In this document: piece after piece, positions 47,693 through 57,753 of the stretch
Numbering within the stretch: position 1 is the stretch's first letter
Layout: the number at the start of each line of letters is the position of its first letter
Assembly: GCA_016795065.1 (NCBI GenBank)
Contig: JAEUIU010000002.1
Span: 1 to 64,000, forward strand
Direction of reading: 5' to 3'
DNA length: 64,000 nt
DNA from: Phycisphaerae bacterium
Lineage (GTDB): Bacteria; Planctomycetota; Phycisphaerae; Phycisphaerales; SM1A02
Position numbers and translations under genes: made by a program
The notes under the pieces: model-generated
The model's input: the letters and a program-made list of their open reading frames with translations, nothing else
Told to the model about the DNA's origin: nothing
Database searches by the model: none

Positions 47693-47988
47693 GGAGTCGG
47701 CCCTTTGGACCCTCCGGACCAATCGCTGGCCAGAGGGGTCGGCGTGGAAGATCGCGGACGCCCACGCGTCCGCCGTCCTAAGGCGGGCGATCGACTCGGC
47801 GGGAACCCTAGCGGAGCGAACCGACCATCGAAAGACCGACGGCCAGACCGATATCGCATCGGGGCATCCACCCGAACACCACCCAACCTAGAAGGGGCGA
47901 GAGTGTAGCAGGACTTCGCCACCTGTGGGGAGGCCTTGGACGCGCCGAGGCGACCACTTCGGCACGGGTCGGAACAGGCCGGGTTGTC

Positions 47989-48025
47989 AAAGCGGGCGAC
48001 GAGACTTGAACTCGCGACATTCAGC
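47989..48025. repeat. Truncated extra copy of the tRNA-Gly attachment core
   Basis: 37 bp identical to the start of the 48-bp core at 48042-48089, and preceded by the same GGGTTGTC. The two copies are offset by exactly 53 bp. It may be a remnant of an earlier insertion or a tandem duplication of the attachment region. Confidence 0.8.
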
Positions 48026-48041
48026 CCAGAGTTGGGTTGTC

Positions 48042-48089
48042 AAAGCGGGCGACGAGACTTGAACTCGCGACATTCAGCTTGGAAGGCTG
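48042..48089. repeat. Left attachment site of the integrative element
   Basis: A 48-bp perfect copy of 57680-57727, covering the 3' end of tRNA-Gly from the anticodon stem outwards. Everything to the right belongs to the element and the left flank is chromosome. The partial tRNA here lacks its 5' half. Confidence 0.92.
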
Positions 48090-48273
48090 CAAGCGAGACT
48101 CTGCAACTGGCGATTCGTCAACGGCTTCTGTGAGCCCCGCCCCGAACGACCGCGCAACGGGCCCACTAACGCCACCCGAAGCAGTCGCCGCTTGGCTCGA
48201 TGCCTGCCCCGTCGACCTGGCCGCGAACCTGAGGACGGCGATTGCGGCTCTCCTCGGAGGACCGACGCCATGA
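48088..48273 (+). other. Displaced 3' segment of the integrase gene (61 codons)
   Basis: Reading on from the attachment core in the integrase frame gives 61 codons ending in TGA at 48271-48273, including LTPPEAVAAWLDACPVDLAA and LRTAIAALLGG, a plausible amphipathic helical tail. After excision the core at 57680 would be joined to this segment without a frame change, replacing the TGA used in the integrated state. In the integrated state it has no start of its own other than a TTG at 48037, so it is probably silent. The join is deduced from the two core sequences. Confidence 0.7.
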
Positions 48274-48549
48274 CCACCTGGCCTACACTGCCGACCGAGA
48301 CTCTTGGCGCGCGAAGGCCGGCGAGGCTCTCGGCAACCCCTTCCCCTACGCCCCCAGCACCGAGGGCGGGCGAGCCCCCCGCCACCGCCTCACGGACGGA
48401 CGGCCGCACCCCTAGACGCCCTGACCCCATCGCCCGCTCTCGTCGCCAGTCGCTAGGGAGATCGCCCACCCTACCGCCTGTTACCCCCTGCCGAGGGTGC
48501 ACTCGATTCCCGGATTCGGTCCCGATTTGGTTGGCTGGCTCTCATTCTG
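48274..48549. other. Spacer between the displaced integrase end and the serine recombinase
   Basis: The frame of the serine recombinase is open upstream to an ATG at 48270 that overlaps the preceding TGA, but composition (Pro/Arg/Thr-rich) suggests it is not coding. Another frame encodes HLAYTADRDSWRAKAGEALG and could be part of a small gene with a TTG start. Neither is convincing. Confidence 0.35.
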
Positions 48550-48575
48550 TGTTACCATTGGACCGAAGGGTAACA
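48550..48575. promoter_or_regulatory. Inverted repeat just upstream of the serine recombinase start
   Basis: TGTTACC and GGTAACA are perfect 7-bp arms with a 12-base centre, ending 3 bases before the ATG at 48579. Its position suits an operator or autoregulatory site. Confidence 0.5.
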
Positions 48576-48578
48576 ACA

Positions 48579-49310
48579 ATGGCGAAGCGAATCACCAAGA
48601 CCAGCGGCCGAAACACCTCCGAGCGAATCGCCTTCGGCTACGTCCGGGTGTCGACCGAGGGGCAGGCCACCGACGGAGTGAGCCTCGATGCCCAGCGGAC
48701 CGCCATCACCGCCTACTGCCAGATGAACGGGCTCCGGCTCGTCGCGATCGAGGCCGACGAGGGGATCAGCGGCAGCAAGACCAGCAACCGGCCGGGGCTC
48801 CGCAAGGCCGTCGACGCAGCGTGCGAGGCCGGCGCGGTCCTGATCGCCTACAGCCTCTCCCGCATCGCCCGTAACACGATCGAAACCCTTGAACTGGCCG
48901 AGCGGCTCGAGGATGCCGGGGCCGACCTGGCGAGCCTCTCCGAGCGGATCGACACGAGCGGCGCCTGCGGCCGCATGGTGTTCCGGATGCTGGCCGTCCT
49001 CGCCGAGTTCGAACGCGACCAGATTGCCGAGCGGACCCGCATGGGCCTCGCCGAGAAGCGACGTCGCGGCGAGAAGACCGGAGGCCAAGTCCCCTTCGGC
49101 TTCCGGGCCGAGGACCAGGGCGGCACGCTCATGCTCGTCGAGGACGCCTCCGAGCAGGCAACGTTGGCCGAGGCTCGCCGGCTCCATGCTGCCGGGCTCT
49201 CGCTCCGAGCAATTGGCGCGGAACTCGACGCCAAGGGCATGGCACCCAAGGCCGGCGGCAAGTGGCATGCGAAGACGCTGCGGGATGCGATGGAGCGACC
49301 AACGGGGTGA
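48579..49310 (+). CDS. Serine recombinase (resolvase/invertase family)
   Basis: Cuts and rejoins DNA through a serine-linked intermediate. The N-terminal catalytic domain has FGYVRVSTEGQATDGVSLDA with the nucleophilic Ser, then DEGISGSKTSNRPGL, LSRIARNTIETLEL and LAEFERDQIAERTRMGL. The C-terminal 75 residues (GGQVPFGFRAEDQGGTLM through LDAKGMAPKAGGKW) resemble the start of a recombinase DNA-binding domain, ending short at 243 residues. It lies next to the left attachment site and could act as a resolvase, inversion enzyme or second integrase. Confidence 0.9.
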   Translation: MAKRITKTSGRNTSERIAFGYVRVSTEGQATDGVSLDAQRTAITAYCQMNGLRLVAIEADEGISGSKTSNRPGLRKAVDAACEAGAVLIAYSLSRIARNTIETLELAERLEDAGADLASLSERIDTSGACGRMVFRMLAVLAEFERDQIAERTRMGLAEKRRRGEKTGGQVPFGFRAEDQGGTLMLVEDASEQATLAEARRLHAAGLSLRAIGAELDAKGMAPKAGGKWHAKTLRDAMERPTG

Positions 49311-49313
49311 GGC

Positions 49314-50120
49314 TCAATCGCTGGCGTCATGCTTCGCCCGGGCCTCGCAAACCTCACGGTAAGTCTCGTCTGTCCAGTTCAGATCGGGGCGGATCTTGTA
49401 CCGCATCGCCCAGACTTCGGGCCGCCGATGCGTTCCCGTTCGCTCATAGTGTCTCAGGTCCTCGATTCCCTCACGTCGGAAGTCGCACCCAAAGCCCCAC
49501 TTCTCGATGAACGCTTCGATTTCGGCAGCGGTTGCGGGCGCGTCGAGAGGCTTCCGAGCAAGAGCTTTCCACTCCTCCCGAAACTCGGGATTCTTGCGGT
49601 GGCTCCGAACGTCGAGGCTGAGGCCGAGCAGCCTTCGGCCGTAGGCCTTTCTGATTGGCGGATGCCACGACTCATCGAGCACCTCGCGGATTCTGGCCTC
49701 GCTGCTCCCAAGGACGCGCAACGAGTCGCACAATCGATCGCGCTCCCGTTCCAGTTCTTCATCCCGCCATGGACGCAAGTACTCCGCGCGAACGAACTGC
49801 CCCAAGGAAGCCACGACGACGCTCTCCGCGAGCTTCTGTACCTGAGCGAGTTTGACCTCTGCCTCTTGGGCGGTGCGCCGCAGATCCGCTTCGACGCCCT
49901 TTAGCGTGAGCGAGAAGCGAGCCATGCGATCGAGTTGGGCGAGCAGCGCGGCGCTCACAGCAACGGCGAGAGCCGAGAGCGTTGTCTTCCACTCGCCATC
50001 GATCGCGTGCAATCCAGCAACGACGAACGTAGCCAACGCCACCAACCAAAGCGATGCCTTGAGGCTTGCGCTTGCCACCGGCGAGTATCGGTCCACCCAC
50101 TCATTCGATCGACGCACCAT
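49314..50120 (-). CDS. Membrane protein with two TM helices and a coiled coil, unknown function
   Basis: From ATG 50120: a short cytoplasmic start, TM1 (LKASLWLVALATFVVAGLHA), TM2 (TLSALAVAVSAALLAQL), then a coiled coil (GVEADLRRTAQEAEVKLAQV) and a globular, charged C-terminal domain with several Trp residues. The open frame continues 123 codons upstream with poor composition. It is convergent with the serine recombinase, with only 3 bp between stops. No family is recognised. Small membrane proteins of this type in mobile elements are sometimes defence or entry-exclusion proteins, but nothing here proves that. TACGGT 6 bases upstream may be its -10. Confidence 0.6.
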   Translation of the reverse strand: MVRRSNEWVDRYSPVASASLKASLWLVALATFVVAGLHAIDGEWKTTLSALAVAVSAALLAQLDRMARFSLTLKGVEADLRRTAQEAEVKLAQVQKLAESVVVASLGQFVRAEYLRPWRDEELERERDRLCDSLRVLGSSEARIREVLDESWHPPIRKAYGRRLLGLSLDVRSHRKNPEFREEWKALARKPLDAPATAAEIEAFIEKWGFGCDFRREGIEDLRHYERTGTHRRPEVWAMRYKIRPDLNWTDETYREVCEARAKHDASD

Positions 50121-50513
50121 GCTTGAACCGTACCGCGCGGTCAGTAGGGCGACCGCCCCCCGGGTCCTCCCTCCAGCGCAGCGCCGTGGCTGGCCCGCGT
50201 GAGGAGCGGCATGCCGTGAGAGTCTTTCTTTTCGCTCCGGGCCCGTTGACCCGTTCGGCTGAACCTGGAATTTGAGCCCGGATCGATCGAGCCGCAATTT
50301 TCGGGAAACAAAGGCAGGCAAACCCCCCAGCTTCTCGTCTAGTCCGAGGGTCGCCGCGCCTCGCCGGAAGGACCCGTGAGGCGGCAACAAGCGGCGATTG
50401 TGGAAGCGAACGCCGACACCACCCGCTCTCGGCCGCTCCAGGCCCCAGCGAGGCCGGCGCTGACCAGGGAAGACAGCCGGCGAGCCCATCCGACCCTCTG
50501 TCGCTCCCGCCGA
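50121..50513. other. Gene-free spacer in the element
   Basis: About 390 bp with no supported gene or structure beyond one copy of the dispersed 9-bp motif at 50476. It lies between the membrane protein start and the first zinc-ribbon gene stop. Confidence 0.4.
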
Positions 50514-50831
50514 TCAGCGAGGCTCTCCGTGGCTCAGGCCTGCACCGAGGGCGTTGGCGGGCCCGGTCACCTCGCCGGCCGACGGCGCTTGCGACGGGCC
50601 GACACACTTGGAACGCCTCAGTGGCCGTCCGATGCTCGGGTCGAAAGCCTGCCCCACGGGTACCTCGATCGTCTTGGTTCGCTCTCCGCAGCTCGAGCAC
50701 CGACGGGAGCGAACGGCGCCGTTACCTCGGTGCTTTGTGGAGAGCACCCGATTCAGGGCACCACCGCACGAGGCGCAACGTGGCCCGTTCAACGTCCAGG
50801 CGGGAGGGACCGACCGCGGCTCGGAGGGCAT
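50514..50831 (-). CDS. Small zinc-ribbon protein (first of three related units)
   Basis: 105 residues from ATG 50831. A four-Cys ribbon is clear: RCASCGGALNRVL, a basic linker, then RRCSSCGERTKTIEVP. The pattern CxxCGGxL ... RxCxxCGxxxxT recurs in the two neighbouring units. It resembles the zinc-ribbon halves of NrdR or phage Ogr/Delta regulators without any further domain. The tail is low-complexity. Likely nucleic-acid or protein binding. Confidence 0.55.
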   Translation of the reverse strand: MPSEPRSVPPAWTLNGPRCASCGGALNRVLSTKHRGNGAVRSRRCSSCGERTKTIEVPVGQAFDPSIGRPLRRSKCVGPSQAPSAGEVTGPANALGAGLSHGEPR

Positions 50832-50897
50832 TGATCGCAGGGTACCCGAGGCCCTGGCCGCGACCGCATCGCCGGCCTTCTGTGCGGTGAGCCAGTG

Positions 50898-51080
50898 TCA
50901 GCGCCGATCAATCTCGACGTTCGGGCCGGGCCGCTCCCGGGCCGGCGAGCGGTTTTGAGGTTCGATCGTCTCGGCCCTGGCTCCGCAGCTCCGACGCATT
51001 CGGCCCCTTCGCACCCCTTGGGCGAGACGTCGGCTCTGCCTCACGCGGTCCAGTGAACAGCCGCACGAGGGGCAGGCGAG
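50898..51080 (-). pseudogene. Degraded zinc-ribbon unit
   Basis: Between two in-frame stops the minus strand encodes ACPSCGCSLDRVRQSRR and then RMRRSCGARAETIEP, clearly related to the units on either side. The third Cys is Arg and no start codon precedes the first Cys, so it looks decayed. Confidence 0.5.
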
Positions 51081-51172
51081 GCCTCAAGGCTCCCGCCCAA
51101 GCGTCGGAGAGCCTCCGTGGTCAATCGCTCCGGTTGCTGGTGCATGGGCTCATCCAAGGCACTCCCGACGCC

Positions 51173-51391
51173 TCATGCCGAACCGTGGACCGCTGGGCGT
51201 GGAGCCTCGCCGGCCATCCGTGAGAGCGTGACGACGACACCGCACACCATGCATTCGCGCCGGATTCCCTCGCCGGCCCGTCGCCCCAGGTAGGTGATTC
51301 GGGCGAGCGAGCCACCGCAGGCGCCGCAATGGGCCGGCGATGCTCGAGTGCCCTCGATCGACGACCGCCTCTTGGCTCGCTTGGCTCTCAT
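51173..51391 (-). CDS. Small zinc-ribbon protein (third related unit)
   Basis: 72 residues from ATG 51391, or 80 from GTG 51415. Basic N-terminus (MRAKRAKRRSS), then HCGACGGSLARITYL and RRECMVCGVVVTLSR, the same ribbon plan as the 50514 protein. It directly follows the helix-rich regulator gene that ends at 51424 and could be in its transcript. Function unknown. Confidence 0.55.
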   Translation of the reverse strand: MRAKRAKRRSSIEGTRASPAHCGACGGSLARITYLGRRAGEGIRRECMVCGVVVTLSRMAGEAPRPAVHGSA

Positions 51392-51423
51392 CCGGGGAGT
51401 ATCCCCCCGCCACACCGATCGGC

Positions 51424-52143
51424 CTACCGCTTCGTTCGCTTTCCCGTCTTGGCAGGCACCGAGCGCGCCGAGGATTCCGGCTTCGCTTTCGAACGGCCCT
51501 CTGGCTTCGGCGGCTTGGGTTCGTTAGAACTCGGTGAGCGGCCGGCGGCTTCCGGGACCGCACCATGCTCGGGGCCGCCAGCCGTTCCTTGCCTAGCCAG
51601 CCAGCCGAAAACCCGATCCAGTGTCGCTCCGACTTCCTCGGGATTGTCATGAACCGCGTCGGGAAGCGCCTTGCCTCGTTTCGGCCCGTTTGAGGCACTC
51701 GCGCCTGCGGCCCCCTTCGAAACCGGCCGCTGCCAAGACCGCCCTTGTTCCTCTTCAAGTCCCAACGCCTTCGCGACGTTCGCTCGAAGCTCAGCGAACC
51801 GCTTCGGCCGCATGCGATTGACGTGTCCGTAGCGTCGGACCATCTCTGCATCCACTGGCTGCGAGCTCTTCGACAGCAACTCGGCAAACTGTCCACGCTC
51901 CTCGTCGTAGCCCGAAGGAGCATTCTGAATAATCGCTCGGATCGCCCCGATTGGTACGAACGCGTCGCCCCTGCCAGCCCACACGATCGCTAGCTGAACT
52001 TCTGGTGGTTGCCACGAGAGCCACTCTAGAAGCCCGGAGACTATCGCGGTGCCTGACATGCCCAATGCGCGCCGAAGTTCATCAAGAGCCGAGATCCCCT
52101 CTCCATCGATGCGCACCATTCGACCGGGCTTCGTTGTCGGCAT
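51424..52143 (-). CDS. Small DNA-binding-like protein with basic tail (RHH-like N-terminus)
   Basis: 239 residues from ATG 52143. The N-terminal 50 residues (RMVRIDGEGISALDELRRAL then GMSGTAIVSGLLEWLSW) have the strand-helix-helix plan of ribbon-helix-helix regulators, which is an inference from pattern only. A helical middle (RRYGHVNRMRPKRFAELRAN) and a Lys/Pro/Ser/Arg-rich tail follow. It diverges from the next small gene across a 99-bp spacer, a layout typical of a regulatory switch. The open frame extends further upstream but into the neighbour's promoter. Confidence 0.6.
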   Translation of the reverse strand: MPTTKPGRMVRIDGEGISALDELRRALGMSGTAIVSGLLEWLSWQPPEVQLAIVWAGRGDAFVPIGAIRAIIQNAPSGYDEERGQFAELLSKSSQPVDAEMVRRYGHVNRMRPKRFAELRANVAKALGLEEEQGRSWQRPVSKGAAGASASNGPKRGKALPDAVHDNPEEVGATLDRVFGWLARQGTAGGPEHGAVPEAAGRSPSSNEPKPPKPEGRSKAKPESSARSVPAKTGKRTKR

Positions 52144-52206
52144 GTCGATTGAGGTTAGCACATCAACAGTCAAGCAGAAAGTTGCGACATCTTCTACAAC
52201 CTCTTG

Positions 52207-52235
52207 TTGACACCTATAGGCTCTCCGGTTTATAC
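52207..52235 (+). promoter_or_regulatory. Strong promoter of the rightward element operon, leaderless
   Basis: TTGACA (52207-52212), a 17-bp spacer and TTATAC (52230-52235). Initiation 7 bases later falls on the ATG at 52243, so the first mRNA would be leaderless. It is the best sigma-70-like promoter in the window. Confidence 0.75.
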
Positions 52236-52242
52236 ATCTCGC

Positions 52243-52515
52243 ATGCCTCCGAAGATCGCCACTACCGCCGCCCCCCAGAACGGCACTGTTCAACTCGCTC
52301 GCGATGACTTTGACCTTGCTCACGACATTGCTGGACGCCAGCGATGGAGCATGAAAACAACGCTTGGGATCGCGATTCGGCGACTGGCTACCGAGTTCGG
52401 GGTTAACTCGGCATCGCAATCAGGAGAGGCGGTTCGGCCGCGACGCAGACTACACAACAAGTCGACGCCACATGGGCGTTCGTCGCCATTGACTCGGCGC
52501 ACTGGAGTCGTTTGA
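52243..52515 (+). CDS. Small regulator-like protein, first gene of the element's rightward operon
   Basis: 90 residues. The N-terminal half (NGTVQLARDDFDLAHDIAGR then MKTTLGIAIRRLATEFG) has the same short strand plus two-helix pattern as the divergent 51424 protein, suggesting a ribbon-helix-helix fold. The tail is basic. The next gene starts within its stop codon. Likely a repressor or activator of the operon, by position and size only. Confidence 0.55.
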   Translation: MPPKIATTAAPQNGTVQLARDDFDLAHDIAGRQRWSMKTTLGIAIRRLATEFGVNSASQSGEAVRPRRRLHNKSTPHGRSSPLTRRTGVV

Positions 52516-53813
52516 TGGATCGCCAACGGCTTCGCGCCGCATTCGTCGAAGTCGATCGCGCCTACGCGCACCGTGGCCCACCGCGCGGCAAGCAACGGGC
52601 GTTCGACGAGCCCGCCCGAGAGCGCATGGCGTGGCGGCTCGCGATGTCCAGCCGCAACCTGGTCAGCCTCCCAACCGCGGCCGAGCGCCTTGGCCTCTCA
52701 GTCGATTCCCTCAACGAGCTCGTGGCTCGCAACGGGATCACGGTCTACGTATCGCGCGGATTCGTGTTCCTGAACGCGAGCACCGTCCTCGAGGAACTGG
52801 CCTCGGACCGGGTGCGATTCAGCGTGCGCCACCTCACCGACCTCTACCGCACGCCAGACAGGAGAGCTTGCGCGGACGTCCAGTCGAGGCCCGCCCCGCC
52901 CTCGCCGGCGATTCCAACGCCATTTGACGAGGCCAAGGAATGGACCGAACTCGATCGCATCGCAGCGGTCCGGGCCGATTGCCTGGCCTCGGCCGACGTC
53001 AACAACGATCGGCTCGCCTTGGCCCGCGCCGGCTTCCTCAACCGTATCGCGACCTCGGATGCCCTCGTCGGGCTTCCCCCTCGCGCCTCGGACATCGTGT
53101 CGCCGTTCGGTATGGCCATCTGGACGACGATACTCGTCGAGGGGTGGCGCTCGTGCGATGCCGAAGGATCCGACTACATCGAGCGAAGCGCGGGTGACGG
53201 CAAGCGTGCGAGTCCTCCTGCAGGACCGTGGCCAACTGCACTAGCGATCTTTCGGGCCGAGCACCGCCAAAGGAGGCGGCCGCCGAGCGAGTGGCGACGG
53301 ATTGCCGGCGTTCCGGTCGCGAAGGCGTTCTACGGGTACAAGCGCTACATCGCCAACGCGACCAAGCGGCTGGGTCCGTGGGAGTTGACCGACGACGAGG
53401 GGCGCACATGCGTCCCAGCACACATTGCCGAGGCGGTCTATCGCGCAAGCCTCGAGGGCTGGCGGGCCGACCGCGAAGTGAACGAGGCGATGCGGAAGTG
53501 CGAAATCCGGGGGCGGATGGAGGACGCGTTGAGCAGCGAGAGCATTGAGGATGCGACGCAAGCCATCCTCGCCGGCTCCCGACGCATCGCGGCAGCCCCA
53601 ACGGCAGCGACGCTCCTGGGGATCGGCGAGCGGGAACTGCACTTGCTCAGAAGCAGGCGGCTCGTGCCGTCGCTTGTGCACGGTCCGCTCGTGTTCTTTG
53701 ACCTCATCGCGTTGCGTGACGCACTGGCCGACCTCTCTCGGCGGTCCGAGGCTGGGTTGCCCGACGCGCTCTTTGCCCCCGAGGACCTCGTGTCGAGGGA
53801 CCGGGCAACTTGA
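52515..53813 (+). CDS. Element protein with two winged-helix-like segments, unknown function
   Basis: 432 residues. An excisionase/MerR-like helix-turn-helix pattern occurs twice: SLPTAAERLGLSVDSLNELV (about residues 50-95, ending FVFLNASTVLEEL) and AAPTAATLLGIGERELHLLR near the C-terminus (ending LVFFDLIALRDAL). The middle region is helical and unrecognised. Duplicate DNA-binding ends suggest a protein that bridges two sites. Start ATG overlaps the previous TGA by one base. Confidence 0.6.
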   Translation: MDRQRLRAAFVEVDRAYAHRGPPRGKQRAFDEPARERMAWRLAMSSRNLVSLPTAAERLGLSVDSLNELVARNGITVYVSRGFVFLNASTVLEELASDRVRFSVRHLTDLYRTPDRRACADVQSRPAPPSPAIPTPFDEAKEWTELDRIAAVRADCLASADVNNDRLALARAGFLNRIATSDALVGLPPRASDIVSPFGMAIWTTILVEGWRSCDAEGSDYIERSAGDGKRASPPAGPWPTALAIFRAEHRQRRRPPSEWRRIAGVPVAKAFYGYKRYIANATKRLGPWELTDDEGRTCVPAHIAEAVYRASLEGWRADREVNEAMRKCEIRGRMEDALSSESIEDATQAILAGSRRIAAAPTAATLLGIGERELHLLRSRRLVPSLVHGPLVFFDLIALRDALADLSRRSEAGLPDALFAPEDLVSRDRAT

Positions 53814-53908
53814 ATGAACGGGCACCCGCGCCGGCCGACGCGCGGTCCCTGCCCAATCCACCGTCGGCCGGACCTTTCACCGAGCATCGCTCGGAAGGCA
53901 TGGTGCAC

Positions 53909-54574
53909 ATGGCCACGACAACGCGACAGACCCGACACGCCCGCCCCGCAGCTCGCAAGGCCTCGCCCCAGGCGGGACCTCGCCAGCCAAACCGCATGAA
54001 CAGGACGGAGAGCTCTCCCGACGCGAGGACGCCTAGGGCCCGGATCCTCACTCCCAACGCGGCAGCCGCGGCCCTCGGCTTGGACGGTGACCGCGGGGCC
54101 GCATGGCTCATCGAGCAGGCAAACCGCTACCGCATCGACCACGTCCGTCATGGGAACTCGGTGTACTTCGTTGCCGAGGACCTCGCCGAGTCCATCGCCT
54201 GGCTCTGGTGGCTGAGCGATCACGTTGGCGCGACAGAGCGGCACCGCCTGCGCGTTGAGGCGTTCGACGATCGCATCGCCATGCTCGACCGCGACATCGC
54301 CTCGGCCCCCCCGTCGCTGCGGATCTGCAAGGCCCTGGAGAACCGTGGCCATCGCTACGGGATCGGTCAGTACGTGCGAGCGGTCGACGTCGACCAGGCC
54401 AGCGCCCTCGGATGCGACGTCGGTGAGGATCGGTGGCCCGTTGAGATTCGTGCGGGGCAGGTCGACGCTTCCGTGGCGATGGCCTTGTGGTTCCGGATGC
54501 CCGAGGCCGCTCGCCGAAAGGCGGCGCGAACGCTCTGTGATGACCCGAAGGGAGCGACCCGTGGCCAGCACTGA
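53909..54574 (+). CDS. Element protein with one winged-helix-like segment
   Basis: 221 residues from ATG 53909 (GGAAGG 10 bases upstream); an in-frame TTG at 53810 would overlap the previous gene. After a basic N-terminal tail, ILTPNAAAAALGLDGDRGAA and SVYFVAEDLAESIAWLWW repeat the pattern seen in the preceding gene. The rest is helical. The stop overlaps the xis-like start. Unknown function, likely DNA binding. Confidence 0.55.
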   Translation: MATTTRQTRHARPAARKASPQAGPRQPNRMNRTESSPDARTPRARILTPNAAAAALGLDGDRGAAWLIEQANRYRIDHVRHGNSVYFVAEDLAESIAWLWWLSDHVGATERHRLRVEAFDDRIAMLDRDIASAPPSLRICKALENRGHRYGIGQYVRAVDVDQASALGCDVGEDRWPVEIRAGQVDASVAMALWFRMPEAARRKAARTLCDDPKGATRGQH

Positions 54575-54839
54575 AGCCACCACAACCTCGAGGAACCGAC
54601 ACCGGGGGCCCGGGGCCGGCGAGCCTCCCCCCCGACGCGAGGACGCGACCTCGCCGGCCTCTCTCCTCTGGAGCGTGAAGCGGACGGCCGAGGCGCTCTC
54701 GATCAGCGTGCGGCTCCTCTACTCGCTCACCCAGGCCGGCGAGCTTCCCGCGGTTCGCATCGGGCGAATGGTCCGCTACCGCGTGGCCGACGTCGAGGCG
54801 TTCGTCAACCGACATGGGGTGAAGGGCGGGCCCGGGTGA
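54561..54839 (+). CDS. Excisionase-like helix-turn-helix protein
   Basis: 92 residues from GTG 54561, with GAAGGGAG at good spacing. The C-terminal 50 residues are a clear excisionase/MerR-type wing-helix: LWSVKRTAEALSISVRLLYS and LPAVRIGRMVRYRVADVEAF. Such proteins direct the integrase toward excision. It is coupled to the gene before and after (GTGA overlap). The N-terminal 40 residues are disordered. Confidence 0.78.
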   Translation: MASTEATTTSRNRHRGPGAGEPPPRREDATSPASLLWSVKRTAEALSISVRLLYSLTQAGELPAVRIGRMVRYRVADVEAFVNRHGVKGGPG

Positions 54840-56236
54840 GCGGCCCCCGCCACGGACGGAACCGAAGCCACGGCAAGGACGCCGACCAGCGGGGATCAAG
54901 GCAACCCGAAGCGACGAGCCAGCCGCCGACGGCGTCCCCAATGAACGTGTGGAAGATCGCCGTTCGGATCGGATGCGATCTGCCTCCGGACGCTTCCGCG
55001 AACGAAGTGCTCGTGCTCATCGTCGTGGCGAGCTACATGCCGCCTCCGCGCTTCGTCGCTTTTGTCGGACTCGAACGGCTTGCTCGGGAGTGCCACCTCT
55101 GCCCCGACACCGTGAGGAAGTTCCTCCGGAAACTTGAGGACCGCGGCGTGCTGGATGGCGACCCGCCAATGGCGCGACGGCGCGGTGGCCGCTCGGCTTC
55201 GGTGCTCTGGCGCCGAGGACCTAACTGGCCGAAGGAACTCGCTGGTGGCACCCCGTCGGAAACCCCCGATGCGGTCGGGGGTTTGGACTCAGAAACCCCC
55301 GATGCGGTCGGGGGTTTCGGTCACACGAACCCCCGAGAAACCCCCGAGAAACTCCCGACAAACCCCCGACAAACCCCCGACGGTTTCGGGGGGAGTATGG
55401 AGTATGGAGATATGAGCGCTAAGCGCCCCCCCGTCGTGGCGCCCGCTCCCCCCCAACCGCGGGGGAGTCGCGATCGCGACGGACCGCCCGACGCGACGCC
55501 GAGGGCGTCGGTCGGTCCGTCGCTCCCCAACCGATTCGACGAGGCTCCGAGTTGTACAGCTCAGTCGCTCGCTGCCAAGTTCGGCGTTCTGTCCCCAAGC
55601 ATGGCCCTTCTGCGAACGATCGACTCCGCCCTGGACGAGGTTCGGGCCGAGCTAACGGCATCAGGGCGATCGATATCGGTTCCTGCCCTCTGTGAAGCGG
55701 CGCGCCAAGAACCTCCGGGAGTGCTTCCGGTGGATCTGGCCGACTGGATCAGGCGGCAACTGGGAACGGCCTCGCCGGCCCCACCTGCGCCGAGCATCGG
55801 ACCTCTGGACCAGGGCCCTCCCGCCAAGCGACAGGGAAGGCCGGCGAGTCCACCGCTCAGGCTCACAGGGACCGCAGACCCCCCGCTTCCTCCGATGCCC
55901 CCAGCGAGCCCCACGAAGCTCGGGGCAGAGGCTGCCCAGCTAGCTCGCCGGCTCATCGACGATGGCAGACTGAACGAAGAGCAGCTCGCCTTTCTCACCG
56001 ACGAGGCGAATCGAACGGCCGACCCGCAAGCCCACAAGCTCGAGCGGCTCCGACGAGTCGAGGCCGGCGGCTCGGTCGAAGTGACCGAGGCATGGAGAGC
56101 CGCCCAGGCGGTCGCCCGAAGCGAGAGGGAGACGGACCTGGCCAAGCAGGTGGCGACGCTCCGAAAGGCCTCACCGTCGACGCCGAGGCAGGCCGGCGCG
56201 GGTGAGCCGGCGACGGGACGGCCCATCGCCGGTTAG
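54836..56236 (+). CDS. Replication-initiator-like protein with internal iterons
   Basis: 466 residues starting at GTG. Residues 36-110 form a helix-turn-helix domain of the kind found in phage and plasmid replication proteins: MNVWKIAVRIGCDLPPDA, LERLARECHLCPDTVRKFLR and KLEDRGVLDGDPP. The middle (140-185) is encoded by iterated DNA and reads as Pro/Glu/Thr repeats. The C-terminal half is Pro/Ala-rich with a final helical segment. By position (after xis, before int) and by the iteron array it is likely the element's replication initiator, as in phages whose origin lies inside the initiator gene. No polymerase or helicase motif is seen. Confidence 0.6.
   Translation: MSGPRHGRNRSHGKDADQRGSRQPEATSQPPTASPMNVWKIAVRIGCDLPPDASANEVLVLIVVASYMPPPRFVAFVGLERLARECHLCPDTVRKFLRKLEDRGVLDGDPPMARRRGGRSASVLWRRGPNWPKELAGGTPSETPDAVGGLDSETPDAVGGFGHTNPRETPEKLPTNPRQTPDGFGGSMEYGDMSAKRPPVVAPAPPQPRGSRDRDGPPDATPRASVGPSLPNRFDEAPSCTAQSLAAKFGVLSPSMALLRTIDSALDEVRAELTASGRSISVPALCEAARQEPPGVLPVDLADWIRRQLGTASPAPPAPSIGPLDQGPPAKRQGRPASPPLRLTGTADPPLPPMPPASPTKLGAEAAQLARRLIDDGRLNEEQLAFLTDEANRTADPQAHKLERLRRVEAGGSVEVTEAWRAAQAVARSERETDLAKQVATLRKASPSTPRQAGAGEPATGRPIAG
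55260..55317. repeat. Two identical hairpins in the replication-like gene
   Basis: AAACCCCCGA, loop TGCGG, TCGGGGGTTT occurs at 55260-55284 and again at 55293-55317, a 33-bp period. Each is a perfect 10-bp palindromic stem and contains the same core as the iterons that follow. Confidence 0.9.
55327..55391. repeat. Five 11-bp direct repeats plus an inverted copy (iteron-like array)
   Basis: Units AAACCCCCGAC/G follow each other without gaps at 55327, 55338, 55349, 55360 and 55371; the first has G for its first A and the third has one T. An inverted copy (TTTCGGGGG) follows. The 11-bp period puts every unit on the same helix face. It resembles a replication-origin or regulator binding array. 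Confidence 0.85.
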
Positions 56237-56249
56237 CTTGGGATCGATT

Positions 56250-56287
56250 CAACCTCCGCACGTTCGGTGCGGATCAATCGGAGGTTG
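56250..56287 (+). promoter_or_regulatory. Hairpin that would hide the integrase ribosome-binding site
   Basis: CAACCTCCG (56250-56258) is perfectly complementary to CGGAGGTTG (56279-56287), which contains the GGAGGT Shine-Dalgarno 6 bases before the integrase ATG. An inner stem CCGCAC/GTGCGG competes for the first arm. The leader can therefore adopt open and closed forms. Confidence 0.65.
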
Positions 56288-56291
56288 CGGC

Positions 56292-57728
56292 ATGCGACGA
56301 GCGAAGGAACGCGGACGCGAGAGGCGAAGGGCCCGCGGAGCGGGCTCCATCTTCAGGCGGCGAGAGGGCTCGCCCTGGCTTGTCGCCTGGGTTGATCACG
56401 ATGGGCGGCGACGCGAACTCAACACCAGGACGCTCGATCGGGCGACGGCGGCTCGGATCCTCGCCAAGCGGATCGAGGCCGCGGCGGTCCGACGTGAGGG
56501 CCTCGTCGATCCCGCAATGGACCGCATCGCCGAGGCCTCTCGCTCACCGCTCACCGATCACGTTGCGGCCTACGTCACCCACTGCCGCAACGTTGGGCAG
56601 GATGCCCACTCGCTCAACCAGAAGGAGCGGCACTTGCTGCGATTCGTCGAGGCCAGCGGGGCGAAGCGGATCGCCGACCTCAACGCCGAAGCCCTCGCCT
56701 CGCACATGCGACGCTTCCTCGAGCGTGGCCGCTCAGCCCGAACGGCGAACTTCATCCGACAAATCGCGATCGCCTTCGGCTCGTGGCTCGTTCGCACCGG
56801 GCGCGCCGAGGCCAACGCCATGCGGACGGTCCCGAAGCGCGACGAGCAGATTGACCGACGCCGACGGAGGCGAGCTCTCACCGACGACGAGCTTGAGAGA
56901 CTCCTCAACGTGGCCCGGAGCAAGGGCCGAGAGGCTCTCTACCTTGCGGCCGGGTTCGCCGGGCTGAGGCGAGGCGACCTCGAGTCGATCACCTGGGCCG
57001 ACGTCGACCTCACCGCGGGGACGCTCACGATTCGGGGAGGCAAGGCGAAGCGACTCGACGTCCTTCCCATCCACCCGCAACTCGCCGACGCCCTGGCCAC
57101 CCTCCGGGTGACCTCGCCGGCCCTTCCCACCGTGAGGGTGTTTCCCGACGCCAACAGCCTGGACCGCATGCGACGGGAGGACTTCATCGATGCGGGGCTT
57201 GCGCATTGGGAAACGGTGACCGACGCCAAGGGCGAACCGCTCCGCTATGCGTGCGGTGCCTTGCGGAGGCGGTTCGTGGCCATCGACGAGAACGGGGACG
57301 CGATCGACCTGCACGCCCTTCGGACGACCCTGGGCACGAAACTGGCCCGGGCCGGCGTGGCTCCCCAAGTGGCTCAGCGGGTGATGCGGCATGGGGACTA
57401 CCGGACCACCCTGCGGCACTACACCGTTCTTGGGCTCACCGACACGAGCAAGGCGGTTTCGGCTCTCCCAGCGATCGGGGCCGGCGAGGCGCGGGCGACG
57501 GGCACCACCGACGCGGCTCCGGACGGGAGCGCCCGCTTAACAGCCAGCGTACGGCCCGCCACAAGCGGGCGCGGCGTGCCTGAGCGTGCCGATAAGACGG
57601 CCCCGCCGCACAACTCACGGGGCCGCGCTAAAGGCCTAATGGATGCCGACTTGTGCCGTTCGGTGCCGGTCGGTTCTGAAAAGCGGGCGACGAGACTTGA
57701 ACTCGCGACATTCAGCTTGGAAGGCTGA
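56292..57728 (+). CDS. Tyrosine integrase of the element; C-terminus encoded by the attachment core
   Basis: 478 residues. N-terminal basic region and arm-binding-like domain (GSIFRRREGSPWLVAWVDHD), core-binding domain (LTDHVAAYVTHCRN), then the catalytic domain: FAGLRRGDLESITW (first Arg), DLHALRTTLGTKLA (His-x-x-Arg), RVMRHGDYRTTLRHY with the catalytic Tyr. The C-terminal tail after about residue 400 is disordered. The last 15 codons (KRATRLELATFSLEG) are the antisense of the tRNA-Gly 3' half, and the stop is supplied by the chromosome. On excision the frame would run into 61 further codons. SD GGAGGT, ATG 6 bases later. Confidence 0.92.
   Translation: MRRAKERGRERRRARGAGSIFRRREGSPWLVAWVDHDGRRRELNTRTLDRATAARILAKRIEAAAVRREGLVDPAMDRIAEASRSPLTDHVAAYVTHCRNVGQDAHSLNQKERHLLRFVEASGAKRIADLNAEALASHMRRFLERGRSARTANFIRQIAIAFGSWLVRTGRAEANAMRTVPKRDEQIDRRRRRRALTDDELERLLNVARSKGREALYLAAGFAGLRRGDLESITWADVDLTAGTLTIRGGKAKRLDVLPIHPQLADALATLRVTSPALPTVRVFPDANSLDRMRREDFIDAGLAHWETVTDAKGEPLRYACGALRRRFVAIDENGDAIDLHALRTTLGTKLARAGVAPQVAQRVMRHGDYRTTLRHYTVLGLTDTSKAVSALPAIGAGEARATGTTDAAPDGSARLTASVRPATSGRGVPERADKTAPPHNSRGRAKGLMDADLCRSVPVGSEKRATRLELATFSLEG
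57680..57727. repeat. Right attachment site of the element, inside tRNA-Gly
   Basis: Second copy of the 48-bp core, here continuous with the rest of the intact tRNA gene. The element therefore restores the tRNA 3' half, as usual for tRNA-targeting integrases. Confidence 0.92.
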
Positions 57729-57753
57729 CGCTCTACCACTGAGCTACGCCCGC
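57682..57753 (-). tRNA. tRNA-Gly (anticodon TCC)
   Basis: On the minus strand a complete cloverleaf: acceptor GCGGGCG with CGCCCGC, D-arm GCTCAGTGGTAGAGC, anticodon loop CTTCCAA (TCC), T-arm GCGAGTTCAAGTCTCGT. It is 72 bases with no encoded CCA. The integrative element lies at its 3' side. Confidence 0.95.

Follow-up and report, generated by a model that had tools for sequence, protein, structure and literature searches.

Integrases whose coding sequence extends across the attachment site of their own element are treated as an exception by the authors of the Islander study of tRNA-targeted islands, who cite the myxophage Mx8 and the archaeal SSV-type elements (PMC4383910). In Mx8 the attP site is part of int (AF396866), and the new 3' end that integration gives the gene reportedly alters the activity of the enzyme without eliminating it (PMC6070905, which with PMC4383910 cites Tojo 1996 and Magrini 1999). 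A 2021 review nonetheless describes recombinases that disrupt their own gene as exclusive to archaea (PMC8371274). In the integration-dependent immunity of mycobacteriophages it is a repressor gene that contains attP.

The locus reported here lies in a 64,000-nucleotide stretch of Phycisphaerae DNA (hereafter the window), in which a 48-bp exact direct repeat, AAAGCGGGCGACGAGACTTGAACTCGCGACATTCAGCTTGGAAGGCTG, occurs at 48042-48089 and 57680-57727 (spacing 9638) and bounds a mobile element of 9,638 bp inserted in tRNA-Gly(TCC). The repeat, or core, corresponds to nucleotides 27-72 of the tRNA plus two bases; the right end of the element is the intact tRNA gene and the left end a displaced 3' fragment, with the crossover placed by inference in the anticodon region. 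With an intact tRNA at one end, a displaced fragment at the other and an integrase between them, the element meets the criteria for a tRNA-targeted integrative element. The features concerned are as follows.

48042-48089, plus strand: left core copy (48 bp), displaced tRNA-Gly 3' fragment (exact repeat; tRNA nt 27-72)
48088-48273, plus strand: split-off integrase C-terminal tail, 61 codons (CKRD...GGPTP) and stop (in-frame join; weak family-profile match)
48192-49310, plus strand: serine recombinase of resolvase/invertase type, at the left end of the element (PF00239, E=2.8e-40; PHROG 95, 7e-63)
54225-54839, plus strand: excisionase-like helix-turn-helix protein, candidate directionality factor (HTH_17, E=4.1e-10; PHROG excisionase/transcriptional regulator, 7.5e-9)
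54836-56236, plus strand: replication-initiator-like protein, weak (PHROG replication initiation O-like, E=0.00098; HTH_36 below cut-off)
56292-57728, plus strand: tyrosine integrase, integrated form, 478 aa, catalytic Tyr377 (PF00589, E=1.8e-13; PHROG integrase, 1e-40)
57680-57727, plus strand: right core copy (48 bp), within both the integrase ORF and the tRNA gene (exact repeat)
57682-57753, minus strand: tRNA-Gly(TCC), intact target gene (ARAGORN)

No recognised virion genes were found among the ORFs scanned in the 9.6-kb element. The open frame of the serine recombinase starts within the integrase-tail region in a different frame, its domain beginning at about 48630. CCCCCGA-type repeats at 55256-55392 (a 33-nt unit x2.3 and an 11-nt unit x4.9) lie inside the ORF at 54836-56236, and might be iterons lying, as in lambda O, within the gene for an initiator. 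A second, shorter tRNA-Gly fragment, missed in the first-pass annotation of the window, lies at 47981-48025, 53 bp left of the left core, such that two tandem copies of a 45-bp tRNA-Gly 3' fragment with trailer (47981-48025 and 48034-48078; 53-bp period) adjoin the left side of the element. Because the outer fragment is without the anticodon-loop part, 48042-48089 is the likely core partner; the outer fragment could have been left by an earlier occupant or have arisen by local duplication.

The integrase belongs to the tyrosine recombinase (phage integrase) family, with the catalytic R...K...HxxR...H...Y set present (R226, K251, H341, R344, H367 and Y377, invariant in 16 relatives); searches with it of plasmid and phage collections gave no match. 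Its ORF enters the right core in frame and terminates at 57726-57728, a stop whose TG belongs to the core and whose A is chromosomal. When the right core is joined to the left flank the frame is kept, adding 61 codons (48088-48270) before a stop at 48271-48273, and from the ATG at 56292 the predicted protein is 478 aa in the integrated state versus 539 aa in the excised state. The first-pass annotation had proposed that integration splits this gene at the 48-bp core, that excision would rejoin it, and that only a C-terminal tail is switched. Its coordinates for the core, the stop and the 61 codons are correct; the excised junction, which it had set as a test, is in frame and open to the stop; and the complete catalytic domain, including the catalytic Tyr, is contained in the 478-aa form. 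We consider it very likely that attP lies within the integrase gene and that the two DNA states encode two C-termini, with the reservation that excision is inferred from sequence and not from experiment.

The weak point of this locus is its own tail. Open stretches of 62 codons are common by chance in this DNA, making up 39-45% of those in the window or the element, so that an open frame of 61 codons carries no significance by itself and was not used as evidence. The tail matches the family tail profile (see below) only weakly (4.3 bits, E=0.0019 for one sequence), has no strong relative among 181 family genomes, and has a GC3 of 0.66, lower than that of the integrase (0.82). Aligned with the family consensus, its Trp and LRTAIAAL correspond, with a spacing 5 residues longer. 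One explanation is that the extension is merely a chance open frame in GC-rich DNA, not homologous to the family tail; the proportion of stretches open by chance (about 40%), the weak profile match, and the overlap of the tail region by the serine-recombinase open frame in another frame are in its favor. Against it, the extension occurs at the exact position of the tails of relatives and in the correct frame; it ends in AVAAW...LRTAIAALL, resembling by eye the C terminus of an integrase without a tRNA insert (L085, GWLDICPIPLSDPHRRAISGLLAVG); and the integrases closest to that of the window, L056 and L057 (56% identical), both have clear tails. We consider the chance-frame explanation unlikely and that the window tail is probably a divergent copy of the family tail, the profile support being weak and the case resting on the comparative evidence.

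Relatives came from searching the family (151 genomes) and from scanning 84,980 species genomes (43 loci); nearly all are from Planctomycetota, mostly Phycisphaerae. Of 62 related regions, 50 have an integrase ORF that extends into a tRNA gene, ending within it in 34 and running through it in 16 (47 of 58 when four genomes that were fetched twice are counted once). The targets include tRNA-Gly, Ala, Val, Lys, Asp, SeC, Cys, Thr, Ser, Met and Ile, in both orientations; because so many targets are reached, and from both sides, the ends of the integrated integrases are arbitrary chromosomal sequence. In seven elements (L060, L062, L066, L070, L077, L080 and L090) the integrase is co-oriented with the tRNA-Gly gene, such that the element supplies the tRNA 5' half and replaces its upstream region; close relatives use the same tRNA-Gly in the opposite orientation. 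A second tRNA-Gly fragment (37 nt) is present in the region of one of them (L060:2472-2508), with no tail after it. In a genome of the same genus as the window (G026) the far end is absent from the assembly, and two tRNA-like fragments there are without a tail.

In relatives whose second core copy was present in the sequence examined, that copy is followed in the same frame by a tail with the consensus DxxLxxVVDAWPxLPxAVRxAILAMV, the motif of which (an invariant Trp, an LP turn, R/K and G/A) is kept across many tRNA targets. Leave-one-out profiles recovered five of seven seed tails at E<=4e-11 and the other two at 1.4e-6 and 3e-4. The tail profile matches 67 of 392 Planctomycetota genomes, with nearly all of the tails lying outside any full-length integrase frame. 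Among 18 elements with both ends identified, the tail follows the far core in frame in 16, as compared with 6 expected (p=1.7e-6; binomial, 1/3), i.e. in the window, G122, G009, L056, L057, L060, L066 and G015, and in eight whose ends were paired via a shared core (L172, L173, L175, L177, L183, L184, L189 and L192, in tRNA-Ala, Asn, Gly, Lys, Phe and Val); the tails of L171 (tRNA-Ser) and L073 are out of frame. In a set of 49 tails collected separately, a tRNA fragment lies no more than 330 nt upstream in 39, inside the open frame of the tail in 38 cases, compared with none in 147 control windows; no recognisable tRNA fragment was found at the other 10, and many tails lie in 20-kb regions without a paired integrase. 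The codon-position entropy of the tail (1.06/0.76/1.56) is highest at the third position, with the caveat that conservation and entropy are partly selected for, the profile search itself favoring conserved residues. The first-pass annotation had also held that a lack of coding conservation in the left segment would refute its proposal; on this it is supported, the far-end tail being conserved as coding sequence family-wide, although the copy in the window is divergent, with weak profile support.

Two candidates were rejected: a pairing for L197, for which the shared 20-mer is not tRNA, and a 608-aa frame with a tail (G174:C54), which is not an integrase. In one region (L186; G156:C14:27500-32005) three short tail peptides follow one another, at 475, 1201 and 1895, and might be accumulated remnants of repeated integrations. 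The tail-less relative L082 is from a MAG titled Actinomycetes (genome G588) that has two strong tails elsewhere; transfer, contamination or mislabelling are all possible.

These data bear on the proposal that the overlap is incidental, i.e. that attP lies in a dispensable 3' extension, loss of which has no effect on recombination. Consistent with this view, the window tail is poorly conserved, three relatives (L082, L232 and L235) stop directly after the catalytic domain without any tail, and the linker is predicted to be disordered (see below). By contrast, conservation of the tail motif over many tRNA targets, with divergence at the third codon position, and the preservation of frame in 16 of 18 elements are not readily explained if the tail is dispensable, and we regard incidental overlap as unlikely. 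The reading that we prefer is that the tail is a part of the integrase which integration removes.

Evidence from forms in which core and tail are joined is in accord with this reading. A 9,542-bp IMG/VR contig (L127) has an 87-bp direct terminal repeat, indicating a circle of 9,455 bp, and its integrase is a single ORF that runs through 46 nt of the tRNA-Gly 3' half into a C-terminal extension. The junction has the same frame and boundary as that predicted for the window (...KRAKGIEPSTFSLEG|CGGVAEN... versus KRATRLELATFSLEG|CKR), as had been anticipated for free homologues in the first-pass annotation. The L127 tail has no significant profile score, its likeness being positional and structural. 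A tandem array (G479) contains two copies of the same tRNA-Ser core. An integrase truncated at its N terminus continues in a single frame through core and tail at the inner junction, and the outer integrase extends into tRNA-Ser. Five viral contigs (L126, L232, L233, L234 and L235) showed neither a terminal repeat nor a continuous tailed integrase in the sequence examined, and further scans of viral contigs for free forms found none, leaving L127 as the only circular relative found.

An AlphaFold model of the L127 integrase (mean pLDDT 67.8) is folded to about residue 357, in a region matching the folds of lambda Int, XerA and Tn1549 Int, and disordered from 358 to 479, a segment that includes the tRNA-encoded peptide, i.e. 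the att site. The predicted tail has helices at 481-491 and 495-510 joined by LPPG, the pLDDT of the hairpin being only about 58-67; the family consensus has the same helix, PxLP turn, helix pattern. The disorder of the linker leads us to infer that any tRNA, in either orientation, may be tolerated there.

Overall, attP very likely lies in the 3' part of the integrase gene such that integration removes the tail and excision would restore it; the core, the frame, the tail, its presence across the family and the continuous gene of L127 rest directly on sequence, excision and the function of the tail being inferred. In the circle the gene would encode a full-length enzyme comprising an arm/core/catalytic unit, a long disordered linker containing the tRNA-derived core, and a short C-terminal tail, predicted from relatives to be a helical hairpin. 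On recombination between attP and the tRNA-Gly anticodon region, the tRNA would be regenerated and the tail codons shifted 9.6 kb to the far end; the integrated chromosome would then encode only a tail-less integrase, with its catalytic domain intact, until excision rebuilt the full-length gene. The tailed form may be the integrating enzyme and the tail-less form may mainly excise, together with the excisionase-like helix-turn-helix protein, or may be attenuated, so that DNA state sets protein form, as is reported for Mx8.

An alternative is a suicide model, in which the tail-less integrase is inactive and the element is locked in place until another copy supplies the full-length enzyme, as in the archaeal SSV-type elements. 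The suicidal integrases of archaea are believed to need a complete integrase supplied from outside (PMC8371274), integrated copies are normally without a tail in the 392-genome search (nearly all tails lying apart from a full-length frame), and tandem arrays such as G479 could provide a continuous C terminus. However, SSV types lose the N-terminal part, whereas here the whole catalytic domain, including the Tyr, is in one ORF; the excisionase-like gene is retained; and in Mx8, which has the same geometry, the change is reportedly not inactivating (PMC6070905). The suicide model is possible but less likely.

Under the preferred reading, in which the tail-less enzyme retains activity, it may be that loss of the tail switches the direction of recombination. 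In the absence of a recombination assay this effect is an inference that could as easily prove wrong as right; the suggestion in the first-pass annotation that the tail alters direction, oligomer state or stability likewise has no activity data behind it. A bolder reading, which we put forward tentatively and would not yet favor, is that integrases across Planctomycetota host attP in a sequence-tolerant disordered linker, allowing nearly any tRNA to serve as target, that integration is licensed by a conserved C-terminal helical hairpin which only the circular form carries, and that integration itself switches direction without a separate regulator.

In this layout the enzyme itself registers, by simple means, whether its element is integrated, and a tolerant linker is a possible route by which integrases change tRNA targets. 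Many natural pairs are available for testing the role of the tail in recombination direction. For annotation, integrated copies are called with arbitrary chromosomal C-termini, and isolated tails are missed.

With respect to described systems, the first-pass annotation had compared the locus with SSV-type integrases and mycobacteriophage repressors; this requires correction, as a precedent for a C-terminal-only swap already exists in Mx8 (PMC6070905, PMC4383910). The archaeal SSV-type elements (pTN3 and pT26-2 families) similarly have attP in the integrase gene, partition that gene on integration and target a tRNA, but there Int(N) is cut from the catalytic Int(C), which is thought to be inactivating (PMC8371274), whereas here only the tail after the catalytic Tyr is removed. 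The window integrase, with a complete catalytic domain in the integrated ORF, fails the SSV-type criterion of an N-terminal part split from the catalytic part. In mycobacteriophage immunity DNA state also changes the C terminus of a regulatory protein at the att site, but it is a repressor that is split rather than an integrase. Islander islands likewise have a displaced fragment and an intact tRNA as their ends, with anticodon and T-region crossover classes; an integrase running across attP is the exception among them but the rule in the Planctomycetota family.

The closest likeness is to Mx8, which also has a tyrosine integrase with attP towards the 3' end of int, exchanges that end upon integration and keeps the catalytic domain; the window meets the Mx8-type layout, the attP core lying within the coding sequence of int on the 3' side of the catalytic Tyr and giving two C-termini. 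Mx8 Int, too, has a tRNA-antisense-like peptide, RSTGLEPV, between its catalytic domain and C terminus. It is only a distant relative (34 bits against the family integrase profile), its C terminus matches none of the tail profiles, giving no tail homology, and Mx8 is a 49.5-kb tailed phage, whereas the element here is 9.6 kb long and its scanned ORFs include no recognised virion genes. The literature searched contained no account of this Planctomycetota class. An integrase spanning attP is thus already known from Mx8 and archaeal SSV-type elements; what is likely to be new is the scale of a bacterial family, a tail that is conserved in it and an acceptance of many tRNAs. A bacterial example had already been supplied by Mx8, and the present results indicate a common bacterial class, contrary to the restriction to archaea (PMC8371274): a layout for which Mx8 is the single known precedent is here family-wide, over many tRNAs.
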